Shown here in pieces: positions 12,411-37,561 of a stretch of DNA of 64,000 nt. Each line of letters begins with the position of its first letter. The first letter of the stretch is position 1. The notes under the pieces were generated by a model, which saw nothing but the letters and a program-made list of their open reading frames with translations, was not told the DNA's origin and ran no database searches. The translations under genes and the position numbers were made by a program. Origin of the DNA: Isoetes taiwanensis (taxonomy: Eukaryota; Streptophyta; Lycopodiopsida; Isoetales; Isoetaceae); assembly GCA_021234155.1 (NCBI GenBank), contig JAJEKV010000010.1:19691418-19755417 (forward strand), read 5' to 3'.

Positions 12411-14020
12411 TGTGACGTCCCCTACTCATATACGGTGCACTCACCGTATACAAACAGGAGTTCATCCCCCATACCAGCTCCATGCTAATATAGGGCCCTC
12501 CACATCATCATCGCAACCTTGAAGAGTTCCGATTGGGAAGAATGAAGGGGTCCTTTACCCTGTCTCCCTCGGGGCCTACCTAGGCATGAAGCGTAAACAT
12601 ACATGTCAAGTAGTACATACATCAACATCATATGACCATCACGAAGGATGGTCCTCCACATATCTGCATAGACAAAGATCAGCACATCACATAGGGAATC
12701 CTACCCAAGGCTCGGACTCAAAGGGATGGCCCGGCGGCTTGGGTCTCCGAGTTCATTGCGCATTTAATTCATGGCAATGGATTTGGCTGGCATAAGAACA
12801 TGGCATAGGGTTGTCCACTCCATCCGCCCCTGTGCACACTTTTGCAGTAGGCTGAAAAGTGTCGGGACCTGCCAGAGCCTCGCCGGATGCATAGCCAAAA
12901 GGGCTACTCCCGGGGTCATCATCCCGTTCGATGGGGCAGGGTAGGGATCACTCCCTCCGAGATCTACATCTTGACTCAAGGTGACTAGAGGGCCCTTTGC
13001 CCGTATTCGACTGAACCCTTTGGAAAGTGTACACCACTTCATGGGTGTCGAGCCCATGCCTTACCCTTTTCGACTCGGTGGTAAGCCATTAAGCCTAGTC
13101 ACAATGATCCCTGGTAGGCCTTACACACCGGAGGGATCGTTCAAGAGTCGAGGACATGAACCTCCTTCTTAGCCCGGTCGGCCCCTTCACCCACAACTGT
13201 GGTGTGGTTCTTTGACACAGGGCGAATCTATGGTGTGCTAGAGAGGCTAATCTAGGAGCATCTACTACCAAGCTTGAAGTCTCTACCCCCTTCCCAATAC
13301 AAGGAGTTCACAGAGATACATCATCCATATACACATCGTAAGAAGAACTAAAGAACTAGATCTAATCTATATCATAGAGTTAGGTTCTTTAGTTAGAGTC
13401 CTGTATCTAGAGATCTAGATAGGCTGCTAAAGGCGATTTAATAGGCTAAACCCCACCGATACAATGACCGGAAAAGCGGTTTAGACCATTAAATGGACTA
13501 CCCTATTCCATGAGTTGCTCCTCGACACGAGTTCGACCATCCTACCGAACTGCTTTCGAATCAAGGGAAACTAATGGTGCCATTCTCTCGACCTGAGTCT
13601 GGGAGGCGGTTTTGACTCCTAGAGCAGCCAAAACAGAGCTCTAAAACCCTAGGAACGAAAATGGGCAAGTTAGGGTTCTCCTACTTAAATAGGCAAGGGT
13701 TGGGGCTTAGGGTTTCCAATTATCCCTTTAGGTATGTGGGATAATTGGGAATGGGCCCACTTGCCTTTAATGGCTAGGTGGCCAAATGTGCCTACGTGGA
13801 AATGTGTGCACCTAAATGTGCCCACATGGAAATGTGTGCACCTTAATAAATGTGCATGTGCACATTAATAAGAAATGCACATACCTAGCAAGTTGCCCCC
13901 TAGGGCTACTCACTGGTTACACGCGTACCGCACACGGTTGGATTGGAGTGGCGGTACGTGGCGGATTTAGAAAAGACAAAGATAACGCCCCGGGACCGAT
14001 TATCGTGGCCGAACGTCACA
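12411..14020 (-). mobile_element. Solo LTR of the chromovirus family
   Basis: This 1610-bp unit runs from TGTGACGTCC to GAACGTCACA. It is the reverse complement of the same LTR family as 46176-47758, with the same terminal TGTGACGT/ACGTCACA inverted repeat and the same 3'-terminal CGGTGCACTCACCGTATAC palindrome. Exact AAGTT duplications flank it, and no internal retrotransposon sequence remains. It is therefore a solo LTR left by LTR-LTR recombination. It interrupts the element A transposase gene. Short open frames within it are not genes. Confidence 0.93.
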
Positions 14021-14025: not shown

Positions 14026-16691
14026 GGGTGAAGCATGGATAGGGGTTTCTGTTATGAATTTGTTGCCAATGCCCGAGAAGATTTCTATGCTCTGTCAGGC
14101 TTGTGCAGAAATGCCACAGATGCATGACTTGGTGAGATGGCCAATAGCATTGGTTCTCGTTGACAGTATTCCAGTTTCTAGCCTAGTTACGGCCGTCAAG
14201 GAGACTGAGGTCGAGAAGGAAGCTTATGCCATCAGGCCGGAGGCTGGAGTAACAAAAAAGAAGTACCACACATGGTGAAGGGGAAGGCGAGAGGGGCGCT
14301 CCCAAAAAAAAAAAAAGGTGAAAGGAAAACCACACCTGAAGCTATCTTGCAGTTCAGGTCCTTGCTGTGCTGCTTGAAGAGATGTTGTGCTAATTTCACA
14401 GTTAAGGAGGTATCCGCCATGAGGACCTTCTACTGGAACATGAAAAGCTCAGAACGTACAACTTTTGCGTACAACATGCTAGATATTTGTTCAGAGAATG
14501 GAAGTGTGAAAAAGCTAATGCTGAACAACAGGCAAGTCTGTGTGAAGGCATGGCATAGTGCATACGGTATACCCGTTTCTACATTTTACAAATGGAGGAA
14601 GCTTTTTATGGACGGGCACAGGATTGCGGAGCACGGAAACTCCGGGTCCATGAAGCCAAGGTCTCATACACTGGTCGGAGGTGCTGTGCTATCTATGTAC
14701 ATAGATGAAAATGCTGAAACTATGCCACACCGCACAAAGGTTACGAGTGGGGGAACTAGAGAAAATGTGAAAAGATTACCTTCCATCTTGACTAAAAAGG
14801 ACATACATCAAGAGATAGATATAACCGTCCACGAGATGACAGGAAAACATGTTTCTCAATCGTCCTTCTTGTCAACGTGGAAGGAGAACCACTCTGAGGT
14901 AGCAATCGCCAAAAGGATAGCATTTTCTAAGTGTAATACCTATATTGTGATAAAGGAGAAACTTGCCAAGACTAGAGATCCAAGAGAAAGAAGAGAGCTT
15001 GCCGTGGAAAGGAAATCTCACATGATAGCCCAACTTTCCTGCAGGAGTCTCTACTGGTCGTGGAGAGCTTTGTCACATCGATCTCCTGAACATGCCTTAA
15101 CCATTATACATGATAAAATGGATCAGAATAAGACGATGGTTCCTCGTCTGGAGAAGCTAGCAAAATCTGTATGGAGGGGTGAACGGTTGAAGGTGAGTCT
15201 TACTGGTGCTCTCATGCATGGGCATGGTGTAGGTGCCTTGGGCCACTTCTCGCTGGACCTCTGGCCTGATGATTCGAATTTTCATGTGGGATCTTTAAAT
15301 CATACCTTGAAAACACTAGAGAATCAATCTGAGGACAACTGGGGTCATTTGAGAAATACAGATCATCCAGGAAGCTGCTGGGGTGGAGCAATTTTGAACA
15401 CGGAAGCCCTTAGGACAAAAATGGTGAATGGCACTAGAAATGATTTTATGCCTCCTATCAAGGGCCCTCTGATACCGAAGAAGTTGCCTAGGAGGCTTTA
15501 CTTGTAGCTAGACAATTGCTCAGGACAAAACAAGAACATGTATCTTTTCTCTTACTTGTCATACTTGGTCTGGTTAGGTGTCTTCGATCAGGTGCAACTG
15601 GGATTCATGATGGTTGGACACACCCACGATGACATAGATGCCCTCTTTGGAAACTACTCTACTCTATTGAGAAGATCAGATGCATTGACTATTCCGGAGC
15701 TTATGCAACTCTTCAGGCCGTGTAGTTCAAAGTCTCCTACGCCCTACCTTGTGTCTGAGGTTCCCAACTGGAAAGAATTCGTGAAAGGTTTTATCCCTGA
15801 TAAGAAGGACCGTTTATGTGGTCATTTGGAACCTCTACTCTTCAAGTTCTGCATGAATGATGGATGGCCACTAATGTTCTACAAGATGAGGCCAGGGCAT
15901 AGGGAGTGGCTACCTGAAAAGCGAATTAAAATGTGGAAGGAGGATGCCCAAGGCTTACCTATGATTCCTAGAGGGTCACCTAAGGTCGTGTAGCCATATC
16001 AGAGCTTGACAGATATAGGTGCCTTGAGAGCTTCAATTGCCAAGTACATGATGCACTGGGCAGCTATTTCTAGAGCCGGCGATAACTCATGGTCTAACAC
16101 ATATATGAATGAAGTTATTGACTACTGGTCCCACCTTGTTGCGAAGTGCTTGGGGACGTTCAGCCGGTAGATTTGTCATTCGAGATTTCGGCCCGCCCAA
16201 AGACGAGACAAACTGCATTAGAAGAACCCGACAACTTATTGGTGGATGAACACATTGGTGCATCTCATTATGTCGGGCCTTTCTCTAGTAGACCCAAGAA
16301 CCCTGTTGAAATATTAGACCCCTACCAAGATGTGAAGAAAGGAATGCTCTTCTTGATCGGGCCACATGATAAGCGCGGCGTGGATGGCCTTTTGCGGAAG
16401 AGGACCCATGAGAGGACCCTAATCTCCCTCACTATGAAGAGGTGTTTGTTTCTTGGTTTGAGCTTTGTTGCGAAAAGGGTACCTCATATGCAATGCAAGA
16501 TAGGGATTCTTTGGAGCAAGAATTGGAGACCGAATCCTAATGACCCACCACGCTACCAACATTTGAAAACAATAGACTATGGTTGGGCCGTAGAGACCAG
16601 GCCATTGTCAGTGGTGATCCCTAGTAGTGTGGGGGCTCAGTTGCAAGAATTAGTGGCTAAAGAAGCTAAGGACGATGATGAGAACTCTTGA
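14026..16691 (+). pseudogene. Broken DUF7869-like DDE transposase of element A
   Basis: The first frame (to 14278) continues the gene cut by the solo LTR. A second frame opens at 14272 beside an A12 run, and a frame change or splice there is likely. The core contains TIIHDKMDQNKT (first acidic residue), LDNCSGQNKN (second) and GHTHDDIDALFGN (third block). This is the signature of DUF7869-type RNase H-fold proteins that form plant and metazoan transposases. The core is split by TAG at 15505, where the family has Gln (CAG to TAG), and by a second TAG at 15991. The last part (16146-16691) is in another frame and contains a W-x-W-R-P-N-type strand. Roughly 750 codons are represented. The product cannot be made without readthrough, so the gene is a pseudogene. 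Confidence 0.75.
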
Positions 16692-20687: not shown

Positions 20688-21214
20688 ATGCACATCTTTA
20701 CAAATTATAAACATGAACACAATTATTGATACAAGTACTAACATGAACTGTGATGTTTAAGCAAACAAGATGGCATACTATGAATGTACAATAAGTGATA
20801 AAGGAGTTTTTGAAATGTAGCATCTTCAGTTGTATTGCTAATATCAACACCATAATGTCATTATATGAACTGACATAAAGCTTAACACAGTTCATGGGAC
20901 AATATCTGACAATATTGCTGATACTAATACAAACACCTGTTATGGCATATACTATGGCCATACAAACATTGACAAAATTTCTGACATTAAAGATGCTTCT
21001 ATATTTGATGCAAATAACACCACCTATTATGTCACTAGTATGCACTGACACTAATACTGATGGTATATGTGTAACAACTATTGACATTATATTTGATGCT
21101 AATAACACCACCTATAACATCACTAATGGGCATTGACACTAATACTGATGCTATATATGTAACAACTAGTGACGCTATAATTGGTGCTAATAACAACATC
21201 TATAGCATCATAGC
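20688..21214. repeat. 527-bp segment duplicated at 1839-2365
   Basis: This is the second copy of the 88-bp-unit tandem repeat region described at 1839. Here it continues past 21214 into further related GTGACGCTATA/TAACATCA repeats (to about 21320), so this copy is the more complete one. Confidence 0.9.
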
Positions 21215-21439
21215 AAAGTTACTGACACTGTTGGTGACACTAAGAGTGACGCTATAGGTGACACAAGTTGTGGCATCTATAACATCATTTCTATTGCAAT
21301 GGCACCAATAATGTCATATTGTACTAGGAATGGTACCCAGCGATGCTGGGCATAAGTTGAGAACATGTAAATGATACACTGTAGTAATGAGAGAAATGCA
21401 TATGAATAATCTAAAAGTACTCCATTGTTAAAGTATTCG

Positions 21440-22848
21440 ATGCCATTTCTCTTTCCCTCTGCCATTTTCTCTACCCCACTTTCACCCTTTTTTTCTTCCT
21501 CCTTTTCCTCCTTTTCCATATTTTCCTTTTCCTTTTTTCTTGTTTTTCTTAAACATTTCCTTTTCTTCTTTCTCTTTTTTCTTTTTTCACCTTCATTTTT
21601 CTCGACGAACTTTTCCCACCCTTTTCCCTTTCTTCCCCCCTTTCCCCTTCTTTTGACTTTTCCCTTTCCCATGCCCTTTTCAACACATTCTTCCTCTTCC
21701 CTTTTTCCATGTACCCTTTTCGTCTTTTCCGCACCCTCCCCTTTTTTCCCTTTCTTTTTTTCTATTCTCTTTTTTAGCTTCCCTTTTCTTTACCTTTTCT
21801 CTTCCCCCTTCTCTTTTCTTTACCTTTTCTCTTCCCCCTTGGCTTTTCTTTACCTTTTCTTTTCTCCCCTTTTTTCCCTGTCCTTTCCCCCTTCCCTTTT
21901 TCCAATTCCCTCTTCCCCGTGCCCTTTCTCCCTTCCCTTTTCCCGTTTCCTCATCCCCTTTTTCCTAGATTCCCTTCCACCCTTCTCATCTCTCCTTTTC
22001 TTTTGCCTTTCCCTATCCTTTTTCCCATGCTATTTTTCCCTTGCATTCTCTCTGTCCTTTTCTTATTCCCTTTTTTCCCTTCCTTTCTCCTTATTCTTTC
22101 CATGTTCCCCTTCTTCCCTTCCCTTTTTCTCCTCTCTCCATCCTTTTCTCTTCCCCTTTCCCAGTGCCCATTTCCCTTCCTTTCCTCCCTAACCTTTTTT
22201 TTCCCTTTACTTTTCCTTTTTCCTTTTTCATTTCCCATGTCTTTTTCCCTTTCCTTACCCTTTCCCTCTTCTCCTTTTCCACATGCCCTTTTTTCTCTCC
22301 CTTTTTACATGCTTTTTTTTGCTTCCTTTTTTTCCTTCCTCACCCTTTTTCCCCTTTTTATGCGTCATTTTCCCTTCCCTTTTCCCCTTTCCCTCTCCCT
22401 TTTTTCTCATGCCCTTTTCCCCAGGTTCCCTTTCTACCTTTCCTCGTCCCCTTATCTTTTTCCTTTTCCTTTTTCCATGCACTTTTTCGCTTCTCTTCTC
22501 CCCACCCTTTTACTATTCCCCTTCTTCTATTCTCTTTTCCTCCTTTGCCCCTCCCCACCCTTTTACTATTCCCCTTCTTCTATTCTCTTTTCCTCCTTTG
22601 CCCACCTTTTCCCTCTTCGCCTTTTCCCCATGCCCTTTTTCCCTTCCCACCCCCCCCTTTTTTCCCTTTTATTTTTTCCCTTTTTCCATGCCGTTTTTTC
22701 CCTTTTTTCATCTTTTCCCTCATTCCTTTTTTTGCCCTTTTCCCCTTCCCTTTTCCCTTTTCTGTTTTTTCCTTTTTTCCCTTGCCTTTTTACCCTTCAC
22801 ATTCTCCCTTTTCCTTTTCCTCCTTTTCTTTTTCCCTTTCCCCGTAAG
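21440..22848 (+). repeat. 1.4-kb polypyrimidine (C/T) tract
   Basis: Over about 1400 bases the plus strand is almost entirely C and T, with irregular runs such as CCCTTTTCC. Purines are rare, mostly a CATG or a lone A at intervals, for example in the recurring phrase TTTTCCCATGCCC. The many long frames here (Pro, Phe, Ser and Leu-rich on one strand, Lys, Glu, Arg and Gly-rich on the other) are products of base composition. Some internal tandem copies exist, for example CACCCTTTTACTATTCC at 22505 and 22556. Such a tract can adopt triplex DNA when supercoiled. No gene is claimed. Confidence 0.95.
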
Positions 22849-23035
22849 AGATTAAAGCTTGACCATTCACAGGTGTGGGAATTTGTGCGATAAATCTAGG
22901 CCTTTGGATGCACTTAAATGATCTTAGCCATTCAAATTAGGGCTTGATACAACACGCTAAAACATTATAATATAAGATACTTTCTAATGTTCTGATGACG
23001 TTTTGATGACACTAATTGACCCCTTCTCTTGTAGT
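22849..23035. other. Short unassigned flank
   Basis: This is ordinary-composition sequence between the polypyrimidine tract and the point where LTR homology begins. No feature is seen. Confidence 0.5.
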
Positions 23036-23965
23036 GTCTGTGATGTATATGGATGATGTATCTCTGTGAACTCATTGTATTGGGAAGGGGGGTAGAGACC
23101 CTAAGGCCTAGCAGTTGATGCTCCTAGCTAGCCTCTTTAGCACACTGTAAATTCGGCCTGTGTACAAGAACCACACCTGGTTGTGGGTGAAGGGGCCAAA
23201 CTGGCTCATAAGGAGGTTCGTGTTCTGACTCTTGAACGATCCCCCTGGTGTATAAAGTCTACCGGGGATCACTGTGGACTAGGTCTAATGGCTTGCCACT
23301 GAGTGCGGGTAAGGCATGGGCTCGACACCCGTGGAGTGATGCGTCACTCTCCATTGGGTTCAAGTCGAATAAGGGCGGTGGCCCTCTAGTCACCTTGAGT
23401 CAGCATGTAGATCTCTGGAGGGAGTGATCCCTACCTGCCCCATCGGAACTGGGGAGATGCAACCTAGGAATAGCCCCTTTGGCTATGCATCCGGCGGGCT
23501 ACAATCAGGTCCCAACACTCTTCAACCTACTCTGCAAAGTGTGCACAGGAGGGGCGGATGGAGTGGACTACCCTAAGCCATGTTCTCATGCCAGCCAAAT
23601 CCATTGCCATGAATTCTGTCTGCAATGAACTCTGGAGACCCAAGCCGTCAGTCACTCCCTGGAGTCTGAGCCTTGGGTAGGATCCCCATATGTGATGTGC
23701 TGATCTTTGTCTATGCAGATATGGATGAGCCACCCTTCGAGGTGGTTATGTGATGATGTTGTATACTGACATGTATGTTTATGCTTCCGCAGCTAGGTAG
23801 GCCCTGAAGGGAGACAGGGTAAAATGACCCCTTCATTCTTCCCACTGGAACTCATCAAGGTTGTAGTGACACGTGGAGGGCCATGTATCAGTATGGAGCT
23901 GGTATGGGGGATGAACTCATGTTTGTATACGGTGAGTGCACCGTATACGAGTAGGGGACGTCACA
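23036..23965 (+). mobile_element. Chromovirus 5' LTR, 5'-truncated
   Basis: It matches 46829-47758 nearly base for base and ends GGGGACGTCACA directly before the PBS. The first roughly 650 bp of the LTR (the equivalent of 46176-46828) is missing. Open frames inside it are not genes. Confidence 0.92.
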
Positions 23966-23977: not shown

Positions 23978-24168
23978 AATGTTCTTGGAGACCAAGAGCA
24001 AAGCACTGGCCATGTTCCCAGTAGTACTAACTTGATAGGATCCTCAAGCCTCGAAAAGTGGGAAATTTTTTTCTCATTTTTGTAGTATATGCTAAGCTAG
24101 TAACAATTAAGTGAATTGGAACATAAAAAGACCAAAAACAGTGAGCCAAATCTTTCTAAGGCAAGAAG

Positions 24169-24235
24169 GTCTCACACGTCAAGCCAGAGCAAAAACCAAG
24201 ACTCTAGGTTTTGCCCTGGGCACAACATGCGAGAC
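24169..24235. repeat. B-type palindrome 1 (67 nt)
   Basis: It is an imperfect inverted repeat with arms GTCTCACACGTCAAGCC and GGGCACAACATGCGAGAC and an inner CCAAGACTCTAGGTTTTG stem. It is the most diverged of four copies. Confidence 0.9.
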
Positions 24236-24370
24236 ATTAGGCCATAAACACCTTAATACTTGATGAATTTCAGAAAAGTAACATGCTAGATCGAGTTTTA
24301 AGATAAGAATTAGCTAGGTTGGTATATTATACCCCTAGAAATCATATAATTTAGCATAAAAATCCACAAT

Positions 24371-24437
24371 GTCTCACACGTCGCGCCAGAGCAAAAACCA
24401 AGACTCTAGGTCTTGCCCTGGGCGCAACGTGCGAGAC
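24371..24437. repeat. B-type palindrome 2 (67 nt)
   Basis: The arms are GTCTCACACGTCGCGCC and GGGCGCAACGTGCGAGAC, with inner stem CAAGACTCTAGGTCTTG. It lies about 100 bp before the TATA box of the H3-like gene. Confidence 0.92.
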
Positions 24438-24539
24438 CAATGGATTAGAAAAGTCTAAATTAAGCCCATGTAATAGGTTAATAAGTGTCTTGGCTCATCC
24501 AAAAAGAGTAACTTGAAATTTGACCTAAAATTGGCCATC

Positions 24540-24548
24540 TATAAATAG
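24540..24548 (+). promoter_or_regulatory. TATA box of the H3-like gene
   Basis: TATAAATAG lies 105 bp before the ATG, in an otherwise GC-richer leader. The same box and spacing recur before ORF2 of segment B and before several genes of segment C. Confidence 0.65.
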
Positions 24549-24652: not shown

Positions 24653-26008
24653 ATGGCCAAAACCAAACAGACTGCTAGGGTTCCTCGAGGAGACGAAACC
24701 GCCAGCGCCCTACTTCAGTGGATGCTTCACGAGTGCTTTCTTAACAGAGGAGACCAACCTTCGTCGAGTGAAGGGACAGAGTCAGAGGAGCACCAAGCAG
24801 AAGGATCCCAGCAGGAAGGAGCACAAGACGAGGAGGTAGACCAGCAGGTCGACCAAGAGGACGAGCACTCGGGGGCCTCGACAGAGGTGATCGAAGAAAT
24901 GGAAGGCGACGAGGACGAAATGCAAAAAGTCCTCGAGGAGGTAGAGAAGGAGAAGCAAGATAAGGCGCAACAGGAGCGAGAGGCAAAGGAGCACGAAGAG
25001 CAGAGGCAGCCGACTCCCGAGCCGACCATGGAGGAAGAACTTGAAGCCTGGATCCGAGAGGAGGCAAAGGAGCAAGATGAGCGGAGGGAACCCACCCCCG
25101 AGCAGACCGAAGAAGAAGAACTCGCGGCGTGGATCAAGAAACACGAAGCAAAAGAACGCCGCCGGGAGAGGAAGAGGGCAGAGAAGAAGAGGAAGAGGGA
25201 GGAGCAGGAGGCCAAGTAGGCCGAGGAACTGAGGCAGAAGAAAGGAAAATTCATGGAGGCGGGCGAAAGGAAAATCAAGAAGGTTCCACGAACAAAGATC
25301 GTTATCGAGGAGCGCCCGGCCGACAAACCTGCCTCGTCCGACGACTCTGACGACGAGGACTTCAACCCTAACACAGAAGGTGGAAGTTCTTCGAAGGCCC
25401 CAGGTGAAGAGCAGGTGGATCAAGAGCAGGCGGACCCGATCGAACAAGTGCAGAAGCCTCCGCCATATCCAACTTGGGATAGGAAGAAACAGCCATGACC
25501 TGCCCGAGAATCTTACGTGATAGACCCTGTCAAGGTCTACGAGAGGAAGCTGAAAGAGCACAACGCCTTCATGAAGAAGTGGGAGGCTTACAACTCCTAC
25601 TACCAGGAGAACAGAGTCAGAATTATCGAAGGTGGACGGCCATCGAAGAAGCAGACTCTAAAGCCGCTGCCAGAGAAGCCCAAGCCTCCAAAGAAGCCAG
25701 TGAAAAGGAAAGCCAGCAGAAGGGAGAGCGAGAGACGAGCACTACGAGAGATCAGGCACTTCCAGTGCAGCTTCGGCTTCCTAATCCCACGTGCACCGTT
25801 CGCCCGATTAGTCAGAGAAGTCGTACAAGAGTACAACACCGAAATGAGGGTGACGGACGAGATGCTGCTGGCGTTGCAAGAAGCGACCGAGCAGAAGCTG
25901 GTGCAGCACTTTGAAGATTTCACAGCCTGCACCGTGCATGCCAAGCGAGTAACATTAATGAAGAAAGACATGCAGCTAGCCAGTTACATTAAGGGAGATC
26001 CCCAGTAA
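24653..26008 (+). pseudogene. Histone H3-like protein with H3 tail, acidic linker and H3 fold
   Basis: One frame runs 451 codons with only two internal stops, TAG at 25217 (GAG in the copy near 2.85 kb) and TGA at 25496. The product starts MAKTKQTARV: after Met removal, A1, T3, K4, Q5, T6, A7 and R8 of histone H3 are kept, while R2 is Lys and K9-S10 are Val-Pro. Residues about 25-270 form a Glu/Lys/Arg/Gln-rich linker. Residues about 345-358 are Lys/Pro-rich. From residue 363 an H3 fold follows: ALREIRHFQ (alphaN), PFARLVREV (alpha1), LLALQEATEQKLV (alpha2), FEDFTACTVHAKRV and KKDMQLASYI (loop 2/alpha3). Canonical H3 is about 136 residues, so the linker replaces the rest of the normal tail. 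Chromatin incorporation is an inference from the fold. Palindromes flank the gene. Confidence 0.88.
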
Positions 26009-26153: not shown

Positions 26154-26221
26154 TGTCTCACACGTCGCGCCAGAAGCAAAACCAAGACTCTAGGTCTTGA
26201 CCTGGGCGCAACGTGTAAGAC
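26154..26221. repeat. B-type palindrome 3
   Basis: The left arm GTCTCACACGTCGCGCC is intact. The right arm has decayed to GTGTAAGAC. It follows the H3-like gene. Confidence 0.92.
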
Positions 26222-26353
26222 CATATCCAAACTCGACCAAAACACCTCCAAATCGACCAAGTAAGGGGTCAATCTTGCCTAACTCGATGAGTCTAGCATG
26301 ATTTGACCCTTAGATCATCCAAATTGGACAAGTTTTGACCAAGATAGGGCAGA

Positions 26354-26421
26354 TGTCTCACACGTCGCGCCAGGAGCAAAACCAAGACTCTAGGTCTTGA
26401 CCTGGGCGCAACGTGCGAGAC
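26354..26421. repeat. B-type palindrome 4
   Basis: Both arms are intact, with inner stem CAAGACTCTAGGTCTTG. It precedes ORF2 by 315 bp. The pairs 1/2 and 3/4 have almost identical spacing (about 200 bp). Confidence 0.92.
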
Positions 26422-26614
26422 CTCCTAGCATTTTCTCCACCTTGCCATATCCAATTGACCTCCAGTTTGTTGCAATAGGTTCATTAGATAGTCCCAGTCA
26501 TGCTCAAACCCCCAAAGTAGTCTTCTAATCCCTATTTGGACCTCCAAATAGGTCAGATTCGCCCAACCCCAATACTTTTCTAGGTCACCCAAAAATTAGG
26601 TTTTTTTCCTTGTC

Positions 26615-26623
26615 TATAAATAG
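26615..26623 (+). promoter_or_regulatory. TATA box of ORF2 (segment B)
   Basis: TATAAATAG lies 114 bp before the ATG at 26737, matching the layout of the H3-like gene upstream. Confidence 0.65.
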
Positions 26624-26736: not shown

Positions 26737-28228
26737 ATGGCAACTGCTGACTTCAGGCGATGGTACAGTGCCAGTGCCCATGCAGCTGAGACCGATATCA
26801 ATGCCATTTTTCAAGTTTTCCAAAAGAGATAGATGTCCAGGCCAGTCTGCACGCAACCCCAGCATATAAACAAGTCTTAACCGAGTTTCAAGCTAGGGTA
26901 GGACAGTTCCTAGTGCAGCTCCCCCCTTGTACAGGCTATTTTGTTCCCCGGCCATCCCTTCAAGCAGCCTTGTGTGATGTTCCAAACATTGCCAAGTACC
27001 TGACCAACAAGGCCCAGAGGTTGCCAGATTACATGGTCTTAACAGTCGACAGGACCAAGTATTTTTCCTACACCGCCGCCTTAGCAATCTTCCTTTCCCA
27101 CCGCGCCGAAAACCCCATGGGGGAAACCTCTATCCCTCCCATGAAGGTGGACCCCATAGCCTCTTCAGTAGCAGACCAGCTCCTTTTGCAGTACCAACGG
27201 AGCAAGAAGGAAGAGCTACGTCGAGCTCGACCCAGCAGAAGAGCAGCAGCTAGCGGAAGAGGAGTTACGCAACTTTGAACGAAACCGGCAGACCCTCAGG
27301 ATCGCTCCCCCACTTGGGCTAGGTATCACAAGCCTAGCCCCCATCATCATCGACGACGAGGAGTACCTGACATCCAAAACCTCCCTGAATGCAGGGAGAG
27401 GGAGTACCGACTCGACGAGTTGCTGCATCAACTGCGGCAATAACCAGATCTAGATGATTTCATCGTCCGGGGAGTTTCAGATTTCCCGCTCCAGGTAAGA
27501 GAAGCCGACACCTATACAGGGGAGTCGACTTCGGACATCCAAGCCTACAGCAACATCAGGCAGATAATGGAAGCTCGGGACCTGCCATCTGGTGAGGAGT
27601 TCTATGCCATCCAAGAACGGATGGGGATCCGTGGCAAGACCACGAACATTTTGATGCCGAGCTCTTCGACACCAGCCCTCACAGAGAGAAGAGGCGGGGA
27701 ATCGACATCAGGCGAGTTTCATCGACAATCAGGGATTACAGAGAGTTCACCGAGGTGGAGGTCGATGAATATGCCGGAAGACATAGAGCTGGCGGCCGAG
27801 GGGGCGACGAATCAACAACGTCGCACAACGACAGGTGGCTGAGATACTATCTCCCCCTGCTGCTGAATGGAAGAATAGCGGTAATACACCGCAAATTCAG
27901 CCTCATGGGCGAAGAAGGAGTGTTCATGCTCATCGCACTCTCAGGCTTTGGCATGCATGCTCGGCTGGCTTCAAACATCGACTATGCCGTCTTAGTCAAG
28001 AGAGCGATGGCACTTGACATCTTTGACTTCGTTGTGCCATACCGACGGCAACGAAAACTAGCAGTAACCGCTGCCTACACCTCCGACCACAGGGTAGAGG
28101 AATTGGTGACAGCCTTACAGGGCGGGACGTCAACCAACATCCTCAGGAACTTGGGACGCTCGGTAGGAATGACCCAAGTTAAGAAGTTTCTTGAGGATAA
28201 TCCATCCTACCGGCGATTTCAAGAATAG
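26737..28228 (+). pseudogene. ORF2 of segment B, unknown conserved protein
   Basis: The proposed start reads MATADFRRWYSASAHAAE. The frame then shifts near 26830, 27215 and 27450-27755, so the protein is spread over three frames. Recognisable blocks are YFVPRPSLQAAL, then KYLTNKAQRLPDYMVL, an acidic IIIDDEEYL stretch, and a C-terminal helical block with FGMHARLASNIDYAVLVKRA. The same blocks in the same order occur in ORF2 of segment C (WYASAPHDNEE, WIPKPALEEAA, FGNHSQLASNTERVIAIRR). The first blocks recur in a third copy at 50.6-51.2 kb. I recognise no known family. It always follows, or is found without, the H3-like gene. The conserved C-terminal block looks like alpha-helical solenoid sequence, but that is a guess. 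Confidence 0.7.
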
Positions 28229-28396: not shown

Positions 28397-31318
28397 GTGT
28401 ATGCAGCTAGAGGCTCAGGATCAGCAGAACAACAACGGCAAAACCGTAGGGAAGAACAGAGTCCGCCTAGGCCGCACCCGGCAAGGAACCTGTATGAGGC
28501 ATTTGGCCCCATGACCCCGGAGGAGGAAATGTCACAGATGAGAACGGACCTTGAGCAAATAAAGGCTTTCTTGGCAACATAAGCAGGAGTTGGGTCAGAA
28601 GGCAACGCCCAGTTGCCACAAGCATCAGCTCGGAAAGCAGGAAAGGACAAGAGGAAGAGCAAGAGAAGGAGGTCCCCCAGCACGGAATCCTCCAACTCAA
28701 GCTCGGACTCGGACTCTAATTTCGAGGAGGAGGCTGAACAAGTGCAGGACCATAGGGACGGTAGACACAAAGACTCAAAGGCCTCAGATTACCAGAAGAA
28801 GGTAGACTCAGCATTGGGAAACGTATGGAAGGCCAGGAAGCTCGAGCAATTCTCAGGCGAGAACATGTCAGGCATGGAAGCAGAGGCTTGGCTCGATGAG
28901 ATGAGTGAGTATGGTAACGCCTATGGTATGAAGGATAAGGACAAAGGCAGGGTGGCAACAGCCAACCTTAAAGGAGCAGCATGCATTTGGTGGAAGGGTG
29001 ATGCCAAGGCCCATGGCTTAAGCAGGGACGGTTGCAGGTTCAAAAAGTTTGCTAAGGCTTTCAAGCGCCATTACGTCCCAAGGGAACACAAGTCCAACAT
29101 GATGCAGCAGTTCTATAGGTTGAAGCAAGGAAACAAATCAGTCCAGAAATATACAGAGGAATTCATGAGATTAAGGCTTTATGTGCCAAAGTTGAGTGAA
29201 AAGCACGCAGTGGAGAGCTACATGGAAGGATTGAATGAGGAAATACGCAAGCTTGTAAGGGCAATAAACCCCAAGACGGTATCAGAAGCAGAGTCCAAGG
29301 CAATAAGCTTGCAAGGAACGGGGCCTCATAACAGCGGACAGAGACAACAATATTATCAGGATAAAGGCAAGGCAACAGGGAGTTATAGCCCTAGAGCAGC
29401 CAGCCCAGGTCCAGCTAAAGCCCCATATAGTGGCAACCATAGGAAGCAGCAGGAGAAGAAGCAGGTGTCCTTCAAGGACAAGCAGGAGGGGTCAAACTAC
29501 TCCAAAGCAGTGCGGTCCTTCTTGCAAGCAATGCCCAAGGAGAAGAGACAGGAGTGCATAGAGAAGCAGCTTTGCTTCAGGTGCTTCCAGCCAGGCCACA
29601 GGACAACGAACTGCCCCTTCGTCATGAGCGCAGCGCTAGCAGAATTGGGTGGATGGGACACTCCGTCTGACGACGACGGCGAGGCAGCACGCGACTATAT
29701 TCAGGGTGGGTGTCACATTTTTGCTGCCATAGATACAGAACAAGCAGAGAATCGGTATAAGGTAATTTCCACAGTATGGAAGGCCAAGGCCAAGTCTTTC
29801 ATAGTCCTGATAGACTCGGAAAGTAGCCACAACTTTGCATCCCCAAGAATGGTTGAGGTGTTGAAGTTGAAACCATTGAAGTCAAAGCCGAGGCCCGTAG
29901 TCCTAGCAAGTGGAGCAGTAAGGCAAACAACAGGCAAAAGGATAAACTTCGACATCGACTTGCAAGGAATTAACATCCAGATGGGGGCAGAAGTAATGGG
30001 TATCGGGAAGTATGACCTGATCATAGGAATGGAGTATCTTAGACCAGCGGGGGCCATCATTGATTGTGGAAAGCGGAAGGTGACCCTCACAGCGCCCAAC
30101 GGCAAGATCATTGAGATCACAGGTAAAGAAGTTGTTCCCATCATGCAGTGTATGTCTAGTAAGCGGTTGCTCAAGTGCATAAAGAGTGAGCAGGTAGCAT
30201 ACATCTTCAAGCTTGAGATCGAAGAACCCGAGTCAGAAGAAAGCAAGGAAGACAAGGTGCTCAGCAAATTGCCCAAGCAGATAGCTAAGTTGATCACGGA
30301 GTTCCACGATCTATTTCTAGATGAGATCGAGCAGCTCCCTCCTTACAGGGGAGTCGAGTGTGAGATAGCACTCGAACCAGTGACCAAGCCGACGAGCAAG
30401 GCTCCGTACAGAATGACGACGCATGAACTGATGGAGCTAAAAAAGCAATTGCAGGAGTTGCTCGACCTAGGCTTCATTAGACCTAGCGTCTCACCATTTG
30501 GGGCACTTATTCTCTTTGTCAAGAAGAAGGATGGCAGTTTGAGGATGTGCATAGATTATAGGTAGTTGAATAAGCACACCATCAAGAATAAGTATGCGCT
30601 CCCCAGATCGGATGACTTGATGGATCAACTCCAAGGGGCAAAAGTCTTCTCCAAAATTGACCTAAGGTCGAGCTACCATCAAATCAGGATCAAGGAAGAA
30701 GACATCCATAAAACCGCCTTCAGAACGCGGTATGGGCACTATGAATTCACGGTAATGCCATTTGGGTTATCGAATGCCCCGGCAACGTTCATGAGGCTCA
30801 TGAACGACATCTTCATGGAGTTCTTAGACACCTTCGTGATAGTATTCTTTGATGACATTTTGGTGTATAGCAGATCCCTTGAAGAACATGTACAACACCT
30901 AAGGAGGGTGCTCGAGAAGTTGAGAAGGCACCAGTTGTACGTCAAGTTGTTGAAGTGCCATTTCGCAACGGAAAAGGTGGAATACCTGGGGCATGTGATC
31001 TCAGCAGAAGGAATCTCGACGAATCCTGCCAAGATTGAAGCAGTGATTCAATGGCCGGCACCAAAGAATGTCCATGAGGTCAGAAGTTTTCTTGGCCTAG
31101 CAGGGTACTACAGGAAGTTTGTGAAGAACTTCGCAAAGATAGCAGCCCCGCTAACGGACTTGACGAGGGCGGAAAAGGTGAAAGATTGGGCAGATCATTG
31201 GCACAAGAAAGCCCAAGCAGGGTTTGAATTGTTGAAGGAAGCTTTGACAACCGCCCCCGTCTTGACCCTGCCAGACCCAGAGAAAGACAAGTTGGTGGCG
31301 ACAGGCGCAAGTAAGCAT
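28397..31318 (+). pseudogene. Chromovirus gag, protease and reverse transcriptase
   Basis: Gag starts near 28397 (MYAARGSGSAEQQ) and meets TAA at 28580, then continues in the same frame. The capsid block includes FAKAFKRHYVPREHKSNMM. Nucleocapsid has one zinc knuckle, CFRCFQPGHRTTNC. The protease active site reads VLIDSESSHNFASP, where the family has D-S-G. RT begins about LPPYRGVECEIALEPV and is cut by TAG at 30563 (CIDYR then stop, where the family has Gln, CAG to TAG). It resumes in frame with the catalytic [10 protein letters not shown] and runs into the connection to RNase H ([13 protein letters not shown]). Coding stops at 31318, where segment C is inserted. The product would act in the cytoplasmic virus-like particle. 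The stops make this copy non-autonomous. Confidence 0.95.
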
Positions 31319-31920
31319 TAGGGCGGATTTGGGGTCTGAAAATGGCCCTTATCTTGGGTTAAAGATTTCCACGTCAGATTTGCCAGGACCAATCAGGTTT
31401 GCGCCTTTTTTACGAAAGTCAGTATTACTTGGCAGGTAGAAGGATGAGCAGGCTTACTTGGCATCCACATGGCGTATTTTCATAGGGGATGCCTGCGCTT
31501 TTATTGCAACCATTTTAATGGCCCGTATTTTTCGGGAGTCGCTTCGCCGCCCAAAATAATGGTGACATTGACCGCCTACTGTCAGCGTCACCAACTCCCT
31601 TGTCAAATTTTGGCGCCAAACTTCTGTACTGTCACTCCGGCGCCTCTACGTGCATCCTCTCCGCCTTCACTCCTCATCTGCAATCCATGTCTCCTGTAAT
31701 TTTTGTGTTCTTGCCCCATTTACAGAACTCCCAAGGTCAAGAAGTCCGATGTTTTTTTAGGGTTCCGTATTTTGTCCGATATTTTTTTAGGGTTCCGTAC
31801 AATTATTTAAAAACGTTACCATCATATTTTACTTTAACTTCTGTTTTTTACTATTTATCTCTTGCCAGTTGTCTATTTTTGTCAGTGTTCGTAGTATAAA
31901 GCGCCATCCGCTGAGAAGCC

Positions 31921-32778
31921 ATGGCAAGAACTAAGCAAACTGCAAGGACCCATCCAGGTGGTGTAAGGCCAGGTGATTACATTAGTCCGCCTCCTTCATC
32001 TGAATCTGAAGTCTCTGATAGAGATTCTCCTCCTCCGACCATGCCTAACAGAAGACCCGGAAAAGAAATCCGCGATGACGGGCGGGGAGAAGCAGCTCGG
32101 GAGTAAGTAGGGAGGTGCACTCCGGTTCGAGGAGGATGGATGGAAATGAGAGACCGGGCGAGAATATGACGCCGGATTAATTATTGGGCAGCCGCCTGTT
32201 CTTGCTCTTACTGCTCCTCCTGCTCCTCCTCTGGATGCGCCAGAACCTTCAAATCAAAGGAGGAGGCCCAACGCCCGAAAGGGGAAGGCGACCAGAAATG
32301 TGAGGAGACGGCCGGAAGAGTCACCGAGGAACGACCGCAAATCTTTGGGGTGAGGAGACGGCCGAAAGCAAATGTGCCCAAATCTTGGGGGTGGGTGAGG
32401 GTAGTGGCGGAAGCGGAAGACGAAGCCCGGCATTAAAAGCCCAGCGAGATTAAGAAGTATCGAAGAGCAACCGAGATGGTCATTCGCGTCTCCCATTTGC
32501 GGTGCTCGTGAAAGAGATTCCGCAAGAGTGTGGTGCGATACATCATACCATTCATGAAATTCAAACAAGCGCCTTAAATGCTCTTCAAATGGCTTCGGAA
32601 GCGGTTGGTGTCGGCCTGTTCGAGGACTCGCGGCTTTGCGGCAATACATGTCAAGCTGGTGATCATCATGCCCAAGGACATGCCTCGTCTTACGCATAAG
32701 GGATCCCGAAAGTACTATGGTCAAAATTTTATGGCTGAATACAACAAGAAGAAAGACCCCCCCGGAAAAAGGCCGTGA
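31921..32778 (+). pseudogene. Histone H3-like gene of segment C, frameshifted
   Basis: The product starts MARTKQTARTHPGG, which is the exact H3 tail A1-R8 with K9 and S10 replaced by Thr and His. A Ser/Pro-rich then Arg-rich linker follows and is broken by a stop at 32104. An H3 fold is recognisable across two frames: EIKKYRRATEMVIR (alphaN), LPFAVLVKEIPQEC (alpha1), ALNALQMASEAVGVGLFEDS (alpha2/loop 2), and AIHVKLVIIMPKDMPRL (alpha3). Frame changes fall near 32490 and 32640. The linker is shorter than in the segment B gene and not evidently homologous to it. A TATAAAGCG sequence at 31895 is only 26 bp before the ATG, so it may not be the promoter. A C-type palindrome follows the gene. Confidence 0.82.
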
Positions 32779-32909
32779 AGTGCCTTTTGTTTTTTTCATA
32801 TGTATAATATTTCTTAATGTAATGGCTTTATAATTTGAATCTCTTAGTTCATTTCTTTCTTAGAAGCCTAGCTTAGCGACTTTGTTTTTTTTTTTAATGT
32901 TATACGTGA

Positions 32910-32978
32910 GGATCACACGACGCGCAGCAAGCATTGTGCTTTTTTGTTGCACATAGTAGTCTTCGCGCCGTGTGATCC
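32910..32978. repeat. C-type palindrome 1
   Basis: The arms are GGATCACACGACGCG and CGCGCCGTGTGATCC, separated by a loop with a minor inner stem (AGCAAGCATTGTGC / TTGCACATAG). It follows the H3-like gene. Confidence 0.92.
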
Positions 32979-33009
32979 AACCCTAACCCTAACCCTAACC
33001 TAACCCTAG
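32979..33009. repeat. Short telomere-like (CCCTAA)n tract
   Basis: Three perfect CCCTAA units are followed by CCTAA and CCCTAG, directly adjoining palindrome 1. The six-base unit is not the seven-base Arabidopsis-type repeat CCCTAAA. Confidence 0.85.
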
Positions 33010-33133
33010 AATGTACGGACAAATCTCCCCACAACGGCTGTGTCCCCTTTCATAATCGACAAACGGCTACTTGAGTTCAAAAGTGGCGGCGCCTTACCGC
33101 TCCTAAACATCTTGTTTTCGCCGTTGTTTCGCC

Positions 33134-34629
33134 ATGGATTGTTATGTGAAGTTCACGGAATGGTATGCATCCGCCCCTCATGACAACGAGGAAGTTTTGC
33201 CCGACCGCGATTTATCCGTTCTATTGCAAGGAGTTGGACATCATGGCAAACAGTAGCGAGCTTGGATGCTATCGCGAGGTTGCCTTAGCTTTCACCCGGA
33301 CCGCTTGGTCTCAGCGCACGTCCTTTGCAGATGTCCCTGGCTCGTGGATTCCAAAACCAGCTCTAGAGGAGGCGGCTTCCCATTTGCAAACAGGGAAGAT
33401 GTTTTTCAAGAATGCTGCGCAACGGGCTCCTCCTGGCTGCGTCCTTGTGCTTAAGAAGGTATCTTATTTCTCTTTGCCGTTTGCATTTGCTAGTTATTGC
33501 ATTCTGCTCGGCCAAACCGAAGATACACTGGAAACAATGAAATCTTTAAGCCAAGGGGGGTCAGTTATGTGTGATGATGCTGACTATGACGTAGAAATAG
33601 AGATAGATCTACAAGAAGAAGAGCAAGAATGTAGGAGTTTTAGCTTCGACGCACTGGCCTTGGGTGAACCAGAGGAGGGAGATGATTCTGAAGGTGATGA
33701 GGATGGGGATGAGGATGAAAAGAAGTTGTCTGACATAACGCCAATTTTAGTGGAAGGCAAAGAATACCTATTGCTAAGTGATATACTGAGGAACCCGTCT
33801 TTGTTACGAATGTGTGCTAGGGAAGACGAGCTTATCAGTACCTTGGCCGAATGGGTAAACTTAGGCCTAGATTTTGAAGAGGATTTGGACAAAGAGATGT
33901 TTGAAGTGTCTAATTATACCGGCAATGCTATAAAGCTTAAAGAAGCCTATGAGAGGCTGGAGTCTCGATTTGCTCAAGATGAGGCGAATCTACCAACGGA
34001 AGAAGAATTCCAGCGTCTCCGTGCAAAGCTGCCAACAGGATCTACGAGGTTTGCAGGGCCCTTCATCAATCGTGGCAAAGATAAGCCTGGTAGATGAGGA
34101 TAAATGTGAAGAAGATAAGCTTGAGGGTTCTTATTTGTGGAAAGTAGATGATTTTTCTTGCCGACATGCACGCGGGGGACATGAAAGATTGAAGGACTCT
34201 ACATTGTTACGATATATCTCAAGATTCGATTAATGGGGAGATAATCGTCTTTAGCAGAACTTTCAGTCAAAAGGTCGCGAGTTTGTCTATTACATCCGTG
34301 CATTATGCATGTTCGGGAACCATTCCCAATTGGCATCAAACACTGAAAGGGTGATAGCAATTCGGCGGGATGTTGTGCTACAATATTTTGACGATCAAGC
34401 CGGTCTGCGGGCGAGCAATATGTTAAATTTTTTAGCTGCTGGCTTGACTCACCCAAGGTTGGAAGCTAGGGTCGATAACATGGAAGTCATTGCCTTGTTG
34501 GATCAGTGCGGCAGGGGATTGAAAGAGCATGAAATTGACGCATTTAAGCTTGAGAAATTGGAAGTTATATGTTTTCCAACTTGTATCGGTAAAATTATTT
34601 ATGTACAGATTGTCCTTCGAAATTCCTAA
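33134..34629 (+). pseudogene. ORF2 of segment C, unknown conserved protein
   Basis: The start reads MDCYVKFTEWYASAPHDNEE, aligning with the start of ORF2 in segment B. The frame changes near 33230, so the long frame 33165-34097 carries most of the protein. It contains WIPKPALEEAASHLQ, KNAAQRAPPGCVLVLKK, a strongly acidic insert (GDDSEGDEDGDEDE) and EGKEYLLLSDILRN. After a break at 34097 the C-terminal block resumes (34309-34629) with FGNHSQLASNTERVIAIRR and LTHPRLEARVDNMEVIALL. The acidic insert is absent or much shorter in the B copy. The position immediately after the H3-like gene is the same in B and C. The family is unrecognised and the gene is broken by several frame changes. Confidence 0.7.
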
Positions 34630-34649
34630 TAAAAATTATTTTATTTGTA

Positions 34650-34803
34650 TTTATTCACATCACCTTGAAATACATCACCGATTTTACGTCGTCATATCTA
34701 GGTTTTCGCGTCGTGTGATATCTATCTCGAAGAAATGAAATATTATTGGAAAAAACAATTAATTTATTTATTCCTCACACGACGCGAAGCAGCAACGTGT
34801 GAC
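34650..34803. repeat. C-type palindromes 2 and 3 (degenerate)
   Basis: The right arm TTCGCGTCGTGTGATATC at 34705-34722 has a poorly matched left arm (34650 on). A second left arm CACACGACGCGAAG lies at 34777-34790, with a short ACGTGTGA right arm. They separate ORF2 from the first coiled-coil gene. Confidence 0.7.
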
Positions 34804-34809
34804 TCATGT

Positions 34810-34818
34810 TATAAATAG
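34810..34818 (+). promoter_or_regulatory. TATA box of coiled-coil gene s1
   Basis: TATAAATAG, followed by AAGACC, lies 98 bp before the ATG at 34908. It directly follows palindrome 3. Confidence 0.65.
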
Positions 34819-34907
34819 AAGACCGATGTCCACGCCGACCTCCGACGCTTCCTTCCGCCTTACGCTCATCTTCTACTTCCGCTTCCGCCTTCCACCTTCT
34901 CGGCTCG

Positions 34908-35300
34908 ATGGCATCATCATCTTCCTCTAGCAAGCGACCACGCCAAGATAGCACTCCCCCGCAGTGAGCTGCTCGTGGACATCACCCTTGCGGTGGTAAT
35001 GAAGAGATTCAAGGAGATCCATGATGAAAACAACCGCCTCGCCGCCGAGAACAATGAGGCGGTCGGACGATTAGCCTTCACGAGGGGGCTGCTTTGACGA
35101 AGGAGATGTTGAGCTCGTGGAAATATTAGCCATGTACCAAGAGGCGACGAGCGCAGGGGCGAGGCAGTTGAAACCGCTCACATGATTTCGCAGCCTTAGA
35201 AGATATGGAGAAGAAGCTCCGAGTCGCGGCGGAGGATGAGAACGCAGCCTCACGGCCGGTTGGGCAGACATGAAAATCAGCTAGAGGATCATGAAGATCC
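34908..35300 (+). pseudogene. Coiled-coil gene s1 (decayed)
   Basis: The start is MASSSSSSKRPR, with an early stop. In another frame the conserved block VVMKRFKEIHDENNRLAAEN appears. Downstream DNA matches the next gene s2 over most of its length, including the CTAGAAGATATGGAGAAGAAGCT-type region (here TTAGAAGATATGG). It is one of four paralogues; function is unknown. Confidence 0.55.
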
Positions 35301-35401
35301 CTAGCCGTTGTATCTATCTATTTTTGCTTCAAAGAAAGTTTTCTCTATTTTTGCTTCTATCTATCCTCTTGTTCCAATGTATGTTACATTTTTATTAAAA
35401 T

Positions 35402-35467
35402 ATCACGACGCCGAAATGCCTTGCTTGCAATTAGGTAGCAATCAATGGATTTCGTCGTGCGGTGATC
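35402..35467. repeat. C-type palindrome 4
   Basis: Arms ATCACGACGCCGAAAT and ATTTCGTCGTGCGGTGAT surround a loop containing TTGCAATTAGGTAGCAATC, a loop shared with palindrome 6. Confidence 0.85.
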
Positions 35468-35626
35468 TCCATGCCGTTCTATTTTGCTTCAATGAGAAGT
35501 TCTATCTTTAGTTATGTATCAGTAAAATTACTTATGTATAGATTGTATCACCGAAATTATCAATAAAAATTATCACACGAGCTTTCTCGGAAGAAAAGCG
35601 TTAGAAGAAGTAACGGTCCTTTTTCC

Positions 35627-35688
35627 TCACACGACGAAAAAGTAACGGTCCATTTTCCCTGACCCACGGCATCCTTCGCGTCGTGTGA
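35627..35688. repeat. C-type palindrome 5
   Basis: Left arm TCACACGACG and right arm TTCGCGTCGTGTGA lie 24 bp before the TATA box of s2. A lone left half (ATCACACGA) lies at 35572. Confidence 0.8.
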
Positions 35689-35711
35689 CTCAAGCTACTA
35701 CGAAATCCTGT

Positions 35712-35720
35712 TATAAATAG
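35712..35720 (+). promoter_or_regulatory. TATA box of coiled-coil gene s2
   Basis: TATAAATAG plus AAGACC is identical to that of s1, 93 bp before the ATG at 35805. Confidence 0.65.
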
Positions 35721-35804
35721 AAGACCTTCTATCTTGCCTTCGACCTCCGATCCTCTTCCGCCTTCCTTACGCTCATCTTCTCCGCCTTCCGCCTTTCTCC
35801 TCCG

Positions 35805-36165
35805 ATGGCATCATCATCCTCCTCCAAAGAAGCGACCCCGCCCCGGAGCTGCAGGGGACATCACCCTTTGCTTTGTGGTGATGAAGAGATTCAAGGAGGT
35901 TCACGACGAAAAACAGCCGCCTCGTCGCCGAAAAATGGAGGCGGTGGACGGGAGGTTAGAATTCACGAGGGGGTTGCCGCATGAGCGAGACCTTGAGCTC
36001 AGCGGCAACATTAACCAGTACCGAGAGGCCAATAGCCAGAGGGTCGAGGCGCTTTAAGCGCACACAATATTTTCAGGCGCTAGAAGATATGGAGAAGAAG
36101 CTTCGAGCTGCTGGAGGATGAGAACGCTTGACTTTTACGGCCATTTCTGGGGATCATGAAGATAG
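35805..36165 (+). pseudogene. Coiled-coil gene s2 (decayed)
   Basis: The start MASSSSSKEATPP is followed by a frame change. The frame 35734-36057 then carries VVMKRFKEVHDEKQPPRRR and EFTRGLPHERDLELSGNINQ. It is a close tandem duplicate of s1, promoter and downstream palindrome included. Heptad-like charged residues suggest a coiled coil. Function is unknown. Confidence 0.55.
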
Positions 36166-36249
36166 CCATTGTATATATATTTTTTGTTTCAAAGAAAAAT
36201 TTGCTCTGTTTCTTGCTTCTATATGTTCTCTTGTTTTGTTTTATTAAAA

Positions 36250-36315
36250 GATCACACGACGGAAATGCCATTCTTGCAATTAGGTAGCAATCAATGGATT
36301 TCGCGTCGTATGATC
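36250..36315. repeat. C-type palindrome 6
   Basis: Arms GATCACACGACGGAAAT and ATTTCGCGTCGTATGATC enclose the same loop sequence as palindrome 4, supporting duplication of the whole s1/s2 cassette. Confidence 0.92.
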
Positions 36316-36694
36316 TCCACAACGTACACCTCGTTGTATGTATAAATTCCTAATTTATTAATGGAAAAGTATATGTAACACAAATATCTATATCTAGCTA
36401 GATTATGTGATAACTTGCAGGTAAATGCGAATTTGCATGTGGATGACAACGTCTATTCACATACGTGGCTTGTGGATGACAACGTCATGCCAAGGACGTG
36501 GCATCTTTTGCCACAATAACAACTTGTCTTTTTGTACAGCCTGCACGCTCTGATGCGGTTTGGGATATGACGGATCCCATGATGCGAACATAGGCTACCG
36601 TTGCCTAATTGCATGCTATAATTTCGCCTCGTAGGATTATTACACAACTTTATCGGTACTCGCAACCGTAGATTCCAACGTATCTCTAGTTTCT

Positions 36695-36703
36695 ATATAA
36701 AAC
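36695..36703 (+). promoter_or_regulatory. TATA box of coiled-coil gene s3
   Basis: TATATAAAA lies 98 bp before the ATG at 36793, the same spacing as the other cassettes. Confidence 0.55.
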
Positions 36704-36792
36704 GTCGGAGGCCTTTGTCTTCTTCTATCCGCCATCTTACGTTTCTACCACATCCGCCCTCGGCCATCTTTCCTGTTCTCCCATCACTTTCA

Positions 36793-37209
36793 ATGGCCTC
36801 GGCTCGGTTCCATCCCCGCCGAGATCTTGTCTCAAGTTTTGGTCAAGGAAATTGAGAACATTCGTCTTTGAAGCGGAGGAACGGATCCGCCTTCTAAAAA
36901 GAAAAGCATGATGAAGACGTCGCCAATTTGGTTCGCGGCGGAGGAAAAGGCCGCCTTCTACGGGGAGGTGATTTTTAGTGCGACAATCGGCTGGCTGCCT
37001 TAGACCGCGAATTGCGCGCCACGAGATATAACCTCCAAGAGAGGCTTAGGGCCGCAATCGAAGCGGGAGAGGCTGCCCGAGCTCAACTCGATGAGCGGGA
37101 AGATAAGGTTGCGGAATATGAGAACGTGGTTGCGGGGCAGGCAATCATGTTGGAGGAGCAGAAAAAAATTATCACTGCCCTCCAGGAAGAGCTTGCCCGG
37201 CGATCATAG
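36793..37209 (+). pseudogene. Coiled-coil gene s3
   Basis: The start is MASARFHPRR. A second frame holds IPAEILSQVLVKEIENIRL, matching the LPxDI-VL-MKRLKE block of s4. After two or three frame changes the frame 37012-37209 gives a convincing coiled coil with EAGEAARAQLDEREDKVAEY. It is a third paralogue, broken near its start. Confidence 0.5.
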
Positions 37210-37424: not shown

Positions 37425-37561
37425 ATACAGTGTAGTTAGAATAGTTATTAATGTGTTCCAGCGGACAGTACCATTAATGTGTTCTAGCGGACAACCGACA
37501 GAATCCGCTCGACACGTGCGACAGCAGCCGAGTGTGTTTAATATGTTCAAGCGCTAATATG

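Follow-up and report, generated by a model that had tools for sequence, protein, structure and literature searches.

The chromovirus and its surroundings

The 64,000-nt stretch of Isoetes taiwanensis DNA analyzed here (hereafter the window, to which all coordinates refer) contains a retroelement on the plus strand. A 5′ LTR remnant (23037-23965) is followed at 23966 by the primer site TGGTATCAGAGC, which we take to be a match to tRNA-Met. Further downstream lie gag, protease, reverse transcriptase, and the start of RNase H (28583-31318; the gag start is approximate), then the remainder of RNase H with an SH3-like integrase end and a chromodomain (43518-45289), and the 3′ LTR (46176-47758). The primer site and polypurine site were identified by eye. 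Aligned with the end of the 3′ LTR, the 5′ LTR remnant agreed in 910 of 929 columns. In Pfam searches, the Chromo domain was found at E 3.8e-10, alongside gag, protease, and reverse transcriptase. An integrase core was not found in the piece 44177-44584, which matched no Pfam family, and the match to Integrase_p58_C was weak, just below the cut-off. Given its Ty3-type pol with a chromodomain, and its LTRs, this carrier element has the components of Ty3 chromoviruses, and judged by its sequence it is one.

Several other features of the window were noted. The minus strand has a solo LTR (12411-14020) that is 81-84% like the chromovirus LTRs and is flanked by a 5-nt duplication, AAGTT, which confirmed the LTR ends. 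Frames at 14272-15993, the second piece of which matched DUF7869 (E 8e-32), perhaps represent a gene of another mobile element. A 648-codon open frame on the minus strand (6404-8350), with very weak Pfam matches, is perhaps an intact gene. A long stretch that is pyrimidine-rich on the plus strand (21400-22900) lies upstream of the truncated 5′ LTR.

Within the chromovirus, two groups of genes were examined. Cassette A occupies about 24.1-28.3 kb, and its H3-like gene is positioned after the primer site and before gag. Insert B, of about 12.2 kb (31319-43517, with the right end at 43517 or 43518), splits the RNase H domain. The last residue of the left RNase H piece (31318) corresponds to position 40 of the RT_RNaseH_2 profile, and the fourth residue of the right piece aligns with profile position 43, so that position 41 falls at the serine codon 43518-43520. 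Because the profile continues across without a missing residue, insert B is, on this alignment, a clean insertion by which no RNase H residue was lost. Candidate terminal inverted repeats of insert B (scores 40 and 31) were not significant when compared with shuffle maxima of 43 and 47, and the junctions of A and B had no common direct word of at least 8 nt, a length that leaves shorter target duplications possible. Insert B carries its right end in duplicate, at 40956-41575 and 42915-43518, the former lying 1.9 kb inwards; both copies end at GCTGATAGGAGGCCAT.

The H3-like genes of cassettes A and B

The H3-like gene of cassette A (24653-26008, plus strand) comprises a tip (24656-24679), a linker (24680-25738), and an H3 fold (25739-26005). 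Its 451-codon frame opens with MAKTKQTARVPRGD (more fully, MAKTKQTARVPRG) and closes with IKGDPQ. An initial annotation of this DNA had described such a frame with two nonsense codons, and these were located as TAG at codon 189 (25217-25219) and TGA at codon 282 (25496-25498). It had also reported seven of the eight H3 tail residues at the start, followed by Val and Pro in place of K9 and S10, and both readings held. The tip, AKTKQTAR, is identical to H3 residues 1-8 at seven of eight positions, the exception being H3 position 2, where K replaces R; V-P follows at H3 positions 9-10. When ARTKQTAR was sought with up to two substitutions in all six frames of the window, it occurred in only two places, frame A and 31924. 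The motif ARKS was absent from frame A when the translation was read.

The same annotation had placed an H3 fold at the C-terminus from residue 363, and an HMM search of this segment gave a clear hit. The last open piece of frame A (25499-26005) matched the Pfam Histone family (PF00125) at E 4.6e-26 (91.9 bits; cut-off, 26.4), and in the PDB it matched 176 sequences at E 0.01 or better, with the 60 listed all being named H3 (best E 1e-25). The fold starts at residue 363, the alanine of ALREIR (Met = 1), and is identical to H3.2 at 46 of 87 residues (53%) with zero gaps; loop 1 is of H3 length. According to the alignments, in H3 numbering, R49, R52, R69, R72, R83, C110, and H113 are retained, as are K115, R116, T118, K122, D123, and L126; these are presumably H3 DNA contacts and residues of the H3-H3 four-helix bundle. 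K56, R63, and K79 are substituted, position 63 being proline. AlphaFold, run on the single sequence of this piece, returned a poor model (mean pLDDT 57.6).

Behind the tip lies a linker of 353 residues (residues 10-362), with an acidic part (59 D/E versus 29 K/R over residues 9-188) and, before the fold, a basic part (20 K/R versus 8 D/E over residues 283-354). It had been proposed that the rest of the tail was replaced by about 250 residues; the long linker stands, its length is 353, and replacement is one of two readings. The linker may substitute for H3 residues 9-46, or it may be inserted behind residue 8. The HMMER match of A runs leftward from the fold over the 40 preceding residues to H3 residue 8. 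In this alignment, which is not significant, K9, S10, and T11 are aligned with I, I, and E, and K14 with R; in the same non-significant alignment, lysine occurs at the H3 sites K18, K27, and K36, and loss of K27 and K36 is therefore not demonstrated. When this pre-fold stretch was compared with H3 residues 8-46, 106 of 2000 shuffles reached its local score and 215 of 2000 its end-anchored score, so that homology is not established; among 234 linker segments of 40 residues, the stretch nonetheless scored highest. Under both readings, the predicted protein lacks K9 behind its tip.

A second, decayed H3-like gene (copy B; 31921-32760, plus strand, with an approximate 3′ limit) lies inside insert B. 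It starts at 31921 with MARTKQTARTHPGG, has an exact ARTKQTAR tip (31924-31947), and reaches a stop at 32104. Its fold is preserved in pieces (32446-32496, 32487-32642, and 32644-32682, plus strand) that lie in two frames; the fragment 32487-32682 was first found by tblastn of the H3 piece of A against the window. Against Pfam Histone, the fold of B scored 23.7 bits (E 6.3e-5), just short of the 26.4-bit cut-off; it matched PDB H3 chains at E 3.4e-6, and tblastn with an H3 query detected copy B at E 5e-9. Thus the cassette A gene has a relative inside another insert, which makes it unlikely that it is a unique host H3 pseudogene, an origin that would have undone the initial annotation.

The canonical H3 tail, with K4, K9, S10, K14, K27, and K36, was found in neither A nor B. 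Because V (A) or T (B) occupies position 9 behind the tip, the cassette A gene is classed, from its translation, as an H3-derived variant and not as a canonical H3. In the fold middle, A and B share 21 of 51 residues, and B shares 26 of 51 with H3. Given that the fold middle of B is closer to H3 than to A, two independent captures of H3 are possible. Loop 1 of B has four additional residues, in a decayed stretch. The tail codons of A and B differ at six of eight positions, with five differences silent and one exchanging K and R, and the letters right behind the tip differ. Because five of the six codon differences are silent and the letters diverge just behind the tip, the codon pattern points to selection on tip residues 1-8. 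Neither A nor B is intact, and the window contains no source of the protein.

A fragment copy of the cassette A linker was also present at 2366-3012 (plus strand). It is 97% alike, with 17 of 644 bases differing from A. The dN/dS between the linker copies was 0.49, a value that comes from 17 substitutions and is not established as less than 1. The stops of A are missing from the fragment and vice versa, so that each is private to its copy; a recent source without these stops therefore likely existed. The fragment is joined to a 527-nt stretch that exactly copies 20688-21214, and the whole of 1839-3012 is a patchwork of these two sources (20688-21214 and the linker at 24724-25367) with zero spacer between them.

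Other histones were also sought. With tblastn at default settings, H4, H2A, and H2B gave no match in the window better than E 1.5; with the statistics correction switched off, weak H4 matches down to E 0.004 appeared in the pyrimidine-rich stretch (21.4-22.8 kb).

Gene 2, palindromes, and other contents of insert B

Behind each H3-like gene, on the same strand, lies a second gene (gene 2), and this order was found twice, in A and in B. Gene 2 of cassette A (26737-28228, plus strand) is frameshifted, matches no Pfam family, and is a homologue of the likewise frameshifted gene 2 of copy B (33134-34617, plus strand). When the two were compared piece by piece, three of four pieces scored above all 500 shuffles (z of 16.2 for the N-terminal piece, 5.5 for the second middle piece, and 14.8 for the C-terminal piece), and the fourth (z 2.1) fell within the shuffles. 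Gene 2 pieces matched no family above chance in Pfam or PHROGs, nor did the one piece that was scanned against the PDB, and the single-sequence AlphaFold model of a gene 2 piece was poor (mean pLDDT 37.2).

The two genes of cassette A have a common upstream layout, consisting of two 69-nt palindromes about 200 nt apart, a TATA-like box TATAAATAG, and the ATG. Upstream of the H3-like gene, the palindromic repeats lie at 24168-24236 and 24370-24438 (span 24168-24438), and the box, identified by sequence match only, lies at 24540-24548 on the plus strand, 113 nt before the ATG. Upstream of gene 2, the corresponding repeats lie at 26154-26222 and 26354-26422 (span 26154-26422), and the box, again a sequence match only, lies at 26615-26623 (plus strand), with a spacing of 122 nt. 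The window has five TATAAATAG sites, and four of them precede genes of A or B. The stretch around one of the A palindromes had a folding energy of -40.4 kcal/mol (z -7.1).

In copy B, a palindrome (32910-32978) is located between the H3-like gene and gene 2, and more palindromes with the same core are found at 34705-38344. This core, TCACACGWCGCG, has ten exact sites in the window, all of them in A (3) or B (7), and none was found in 100 shuffles; the 12-nt core was picked post hoc, when both palindrome types had already been seen, and this count is used as supporting evidence only. The whole A palindrome as a query returned the four A sites alone (in all eight rows) and none of the B palindromes, and A and B palindromes have nothing in common beyond the 12-nt core. 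Rfam gave no match at gathering thresholds across 23000-48000.

The region 34705-38344 of insert B also holds four small broken or short frames, with ATG at 34908, 35805, 36793, and 37655. The first two (34908 and 35805) are preceded by TATAAATAG, and the three pieces scanned matched no Pfam family above cut-off. By eye, the starts of the four frames (34908-38100) are similar, and the first two lie within a 75% DNA repeat. Farther downstream, on the minus strand, is a decayed transposase-like gene (38482-40243) with open pieces at 38482-38991 and 39551-40243. The former, C-terminal piece showed a weak likeness to RAG1: it matched Pfam RAG1 at E 0.018, below the cut-off, and all 15 of its PDB matches up to E 5 were to RAG1 (best E 0.021). 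The second piece gave no hit, and a scan of GTDB found no relatives of the transposase-like piece.

Origin and possible role of the H3 variant

Cassettes A and B, with their H3-like gene, gene 2, and palindrome core, probably belong together. Because copy B lies in a foreign 12.2-kb insert and the same gene 2 stands behind both H3-like genes, the more likely owner of the H3 gene is a distinct family of mobile elements that lies nested within the chromovirus. As a whole, our best explanation is a decayed mobile family with an H3 variant and gene 2, present twice in one chromovirus and encoding a K9-less nucleosomal H3, and we put its probability at about 0.5. The material behind this case is a pair of decayed copies plus one fragment, all from the one 64-kb window.

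The initial annotation had regarded the gene as an H3 mimic inside a chromovirus. A chromodomain retroelement does surround the gene, and ownership by it is not supported. If the chromovirus itself had captured H3 for its own use, the captured copy would be an additional gene in the interval from primer site to gag, and cassette A is indeed located there, behind TGGTATCAGAGC and between LTRs that match in 910 of 929 columns. We nevertheless consider this unlikely: copy B lies in an insert foreign to the chromovirus, together with a homologue of A's gene 2; cassette A has TATA-like boxes and palindromes of its own; and both H3-like genes precede the same gene 2, which is itself without a retroelement match. 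In the preferred reading of a separate nested family, the chromovirus, of which the window has one copy, is the landing site of the H3 genes and not their owner.

Somewhat less credible is an integrated, decayed DNA virus with an H3 gene, for which the palindromes and TATA-like boxes would be promoters. Such a virus would account for several small genes with a common upstream layout, and PMC9145170 describes single viral H3 genes whose tails are long or divergent. However, no Pfam virion family was found above cut-off in the scanned pieces, the sole weak match being Phage_scaffold (E 9e-4, 19.6 bits versus a cut-off of 35) in the short piece 36994-37206. All PHROGs matches were at E 0.01 or worse, and neither the H3 fold nor either version of gene 2 had relatives in IMG/VR, in scans that reach close relatives only. 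Moreover, the minus-strand gene of insert B is weakly RAG1-like.

A relic of a host CENH3 gene, or a centromere-targeting element with a captured CENH3, is more doubtful again. CENH3 tail tips differ from the KQTAR of H3, and A has a KQTAR tip of H3 type. Like CENH3/CENP-A, A joins an H3 fold to a long variable tail, and long tails do occur in CENH3 (PMC9145170). A also has some CENH3-like letters: at 27 sites that differ between H3.2 and CENH3, compared by use of three plant CENH3s and an animal-type H3, A has the CENH3 letter at 7 (P63, A65, T85, E87, and L89 among them) and the H3 letter at 3. Nonetheless, 17 of these 27 sites match neither. The longer loop 1 of CENH3 was not found in A, the loop 1 of which, unlike that of CENH3/CENP-A, is of H3 length (0 gaps when aligned with H3, versus 2-4 gap letters with two CENH3s and a CENP-A chimera). 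The middle of copy B scored 98 with H3 versus 53-69 with three CENH3-type folds. Least probable is a chance capture of host H3 and neighboring genes by a transposon for which they never functioned. In its favor, A and B are both broken and patchwork copies such as 1839-3012 lie nearby; against it, about half of the fold residues have changed with two stops in 451 codons, and tip and neighbor gene are the same in two divergent copies, both of which suggest long selection.

If the nested mobile family is the correct reading, cassette A (about 24.1-28.3 kb) and cassette B (31.3-43.5 kb) would be decayed members of one old family that carries an H3 variant followed by gene 2 in fixed order. Both would have inserted into the same chromovirus copy, with the insertion of A being deduced. 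The ancestral product would have consisted of H3 residues 1-8, a long charged linker replacing or interrupting the tail, and an H3 fold. Because the fold retains DNA-contact and H3-H3 bundle residues, this variant would likely pair with host H4 and enter nucleosomes. Its tip would present the docking site for K4 writers and readers and could thus be marked at K4. With K9 absent behind the tip, H3K9 methylation could not serve to silence nucleosomes on or near the element. The protein may be directed to the element by gene 2 and the palindromes. K4-markable nucleosomes not silenced through K9 would be the most likely use of the variant, and a free decoy for K4 readers is a possible alternative role. 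A fuller scheme, in which a multigene transposon family has its own H3, conserved in tip and fold, to form K4-markable, K9-less nucleosomes, with gene 2 serving as a dedicated chaperone or a partner for targeting and the palindromes providing the address, is offered tentatively, and we hold it to be doubtful in its entirety.

Parallels exist among viruses and transposons. According to PMC9145170, bracovirus H4, xenomavirus H3, and Dishui Lake phycodnavirus H3 are likewise single host-type histones on a parasite genome; they keep the fold, with a tail that is sometimes long or divergent, and bracovirus H4 enters host nucleosomes. In viral singlets, fold identity to host histones is mostly 73-89% according to the same review; in A it is 53% to H3.2, and here the first eight H3 residues are joined to a 353-residue linker, on a transposon-like carrier and with gene 2 as a companion. 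The VANC proteins of VANDAL transposons are transposon-encoded and counter silencing, as the H3 variant would; VANCs act sequence-specifically (PMC10398659 and PMC5735166), whereas an H3 variant would act as part of the nucleosome. Among the matches listed for openly licensed papers, none named, in its title or the opening of its abstract, a mobile element in which an H3 gene is conserved.

In many eukaryotes, H3K9 methylation is the main route by which transposons are silenced, and to our knowledge a conserved histone gene has not been described in any transposable element. If the preferred reading is true, a family with its own K9-less H3 and an intact K4 tip would represent a new way for transposons to escape from silencing, and it would also provide a natural experiment on how much of the H3 tail suffices for activity.
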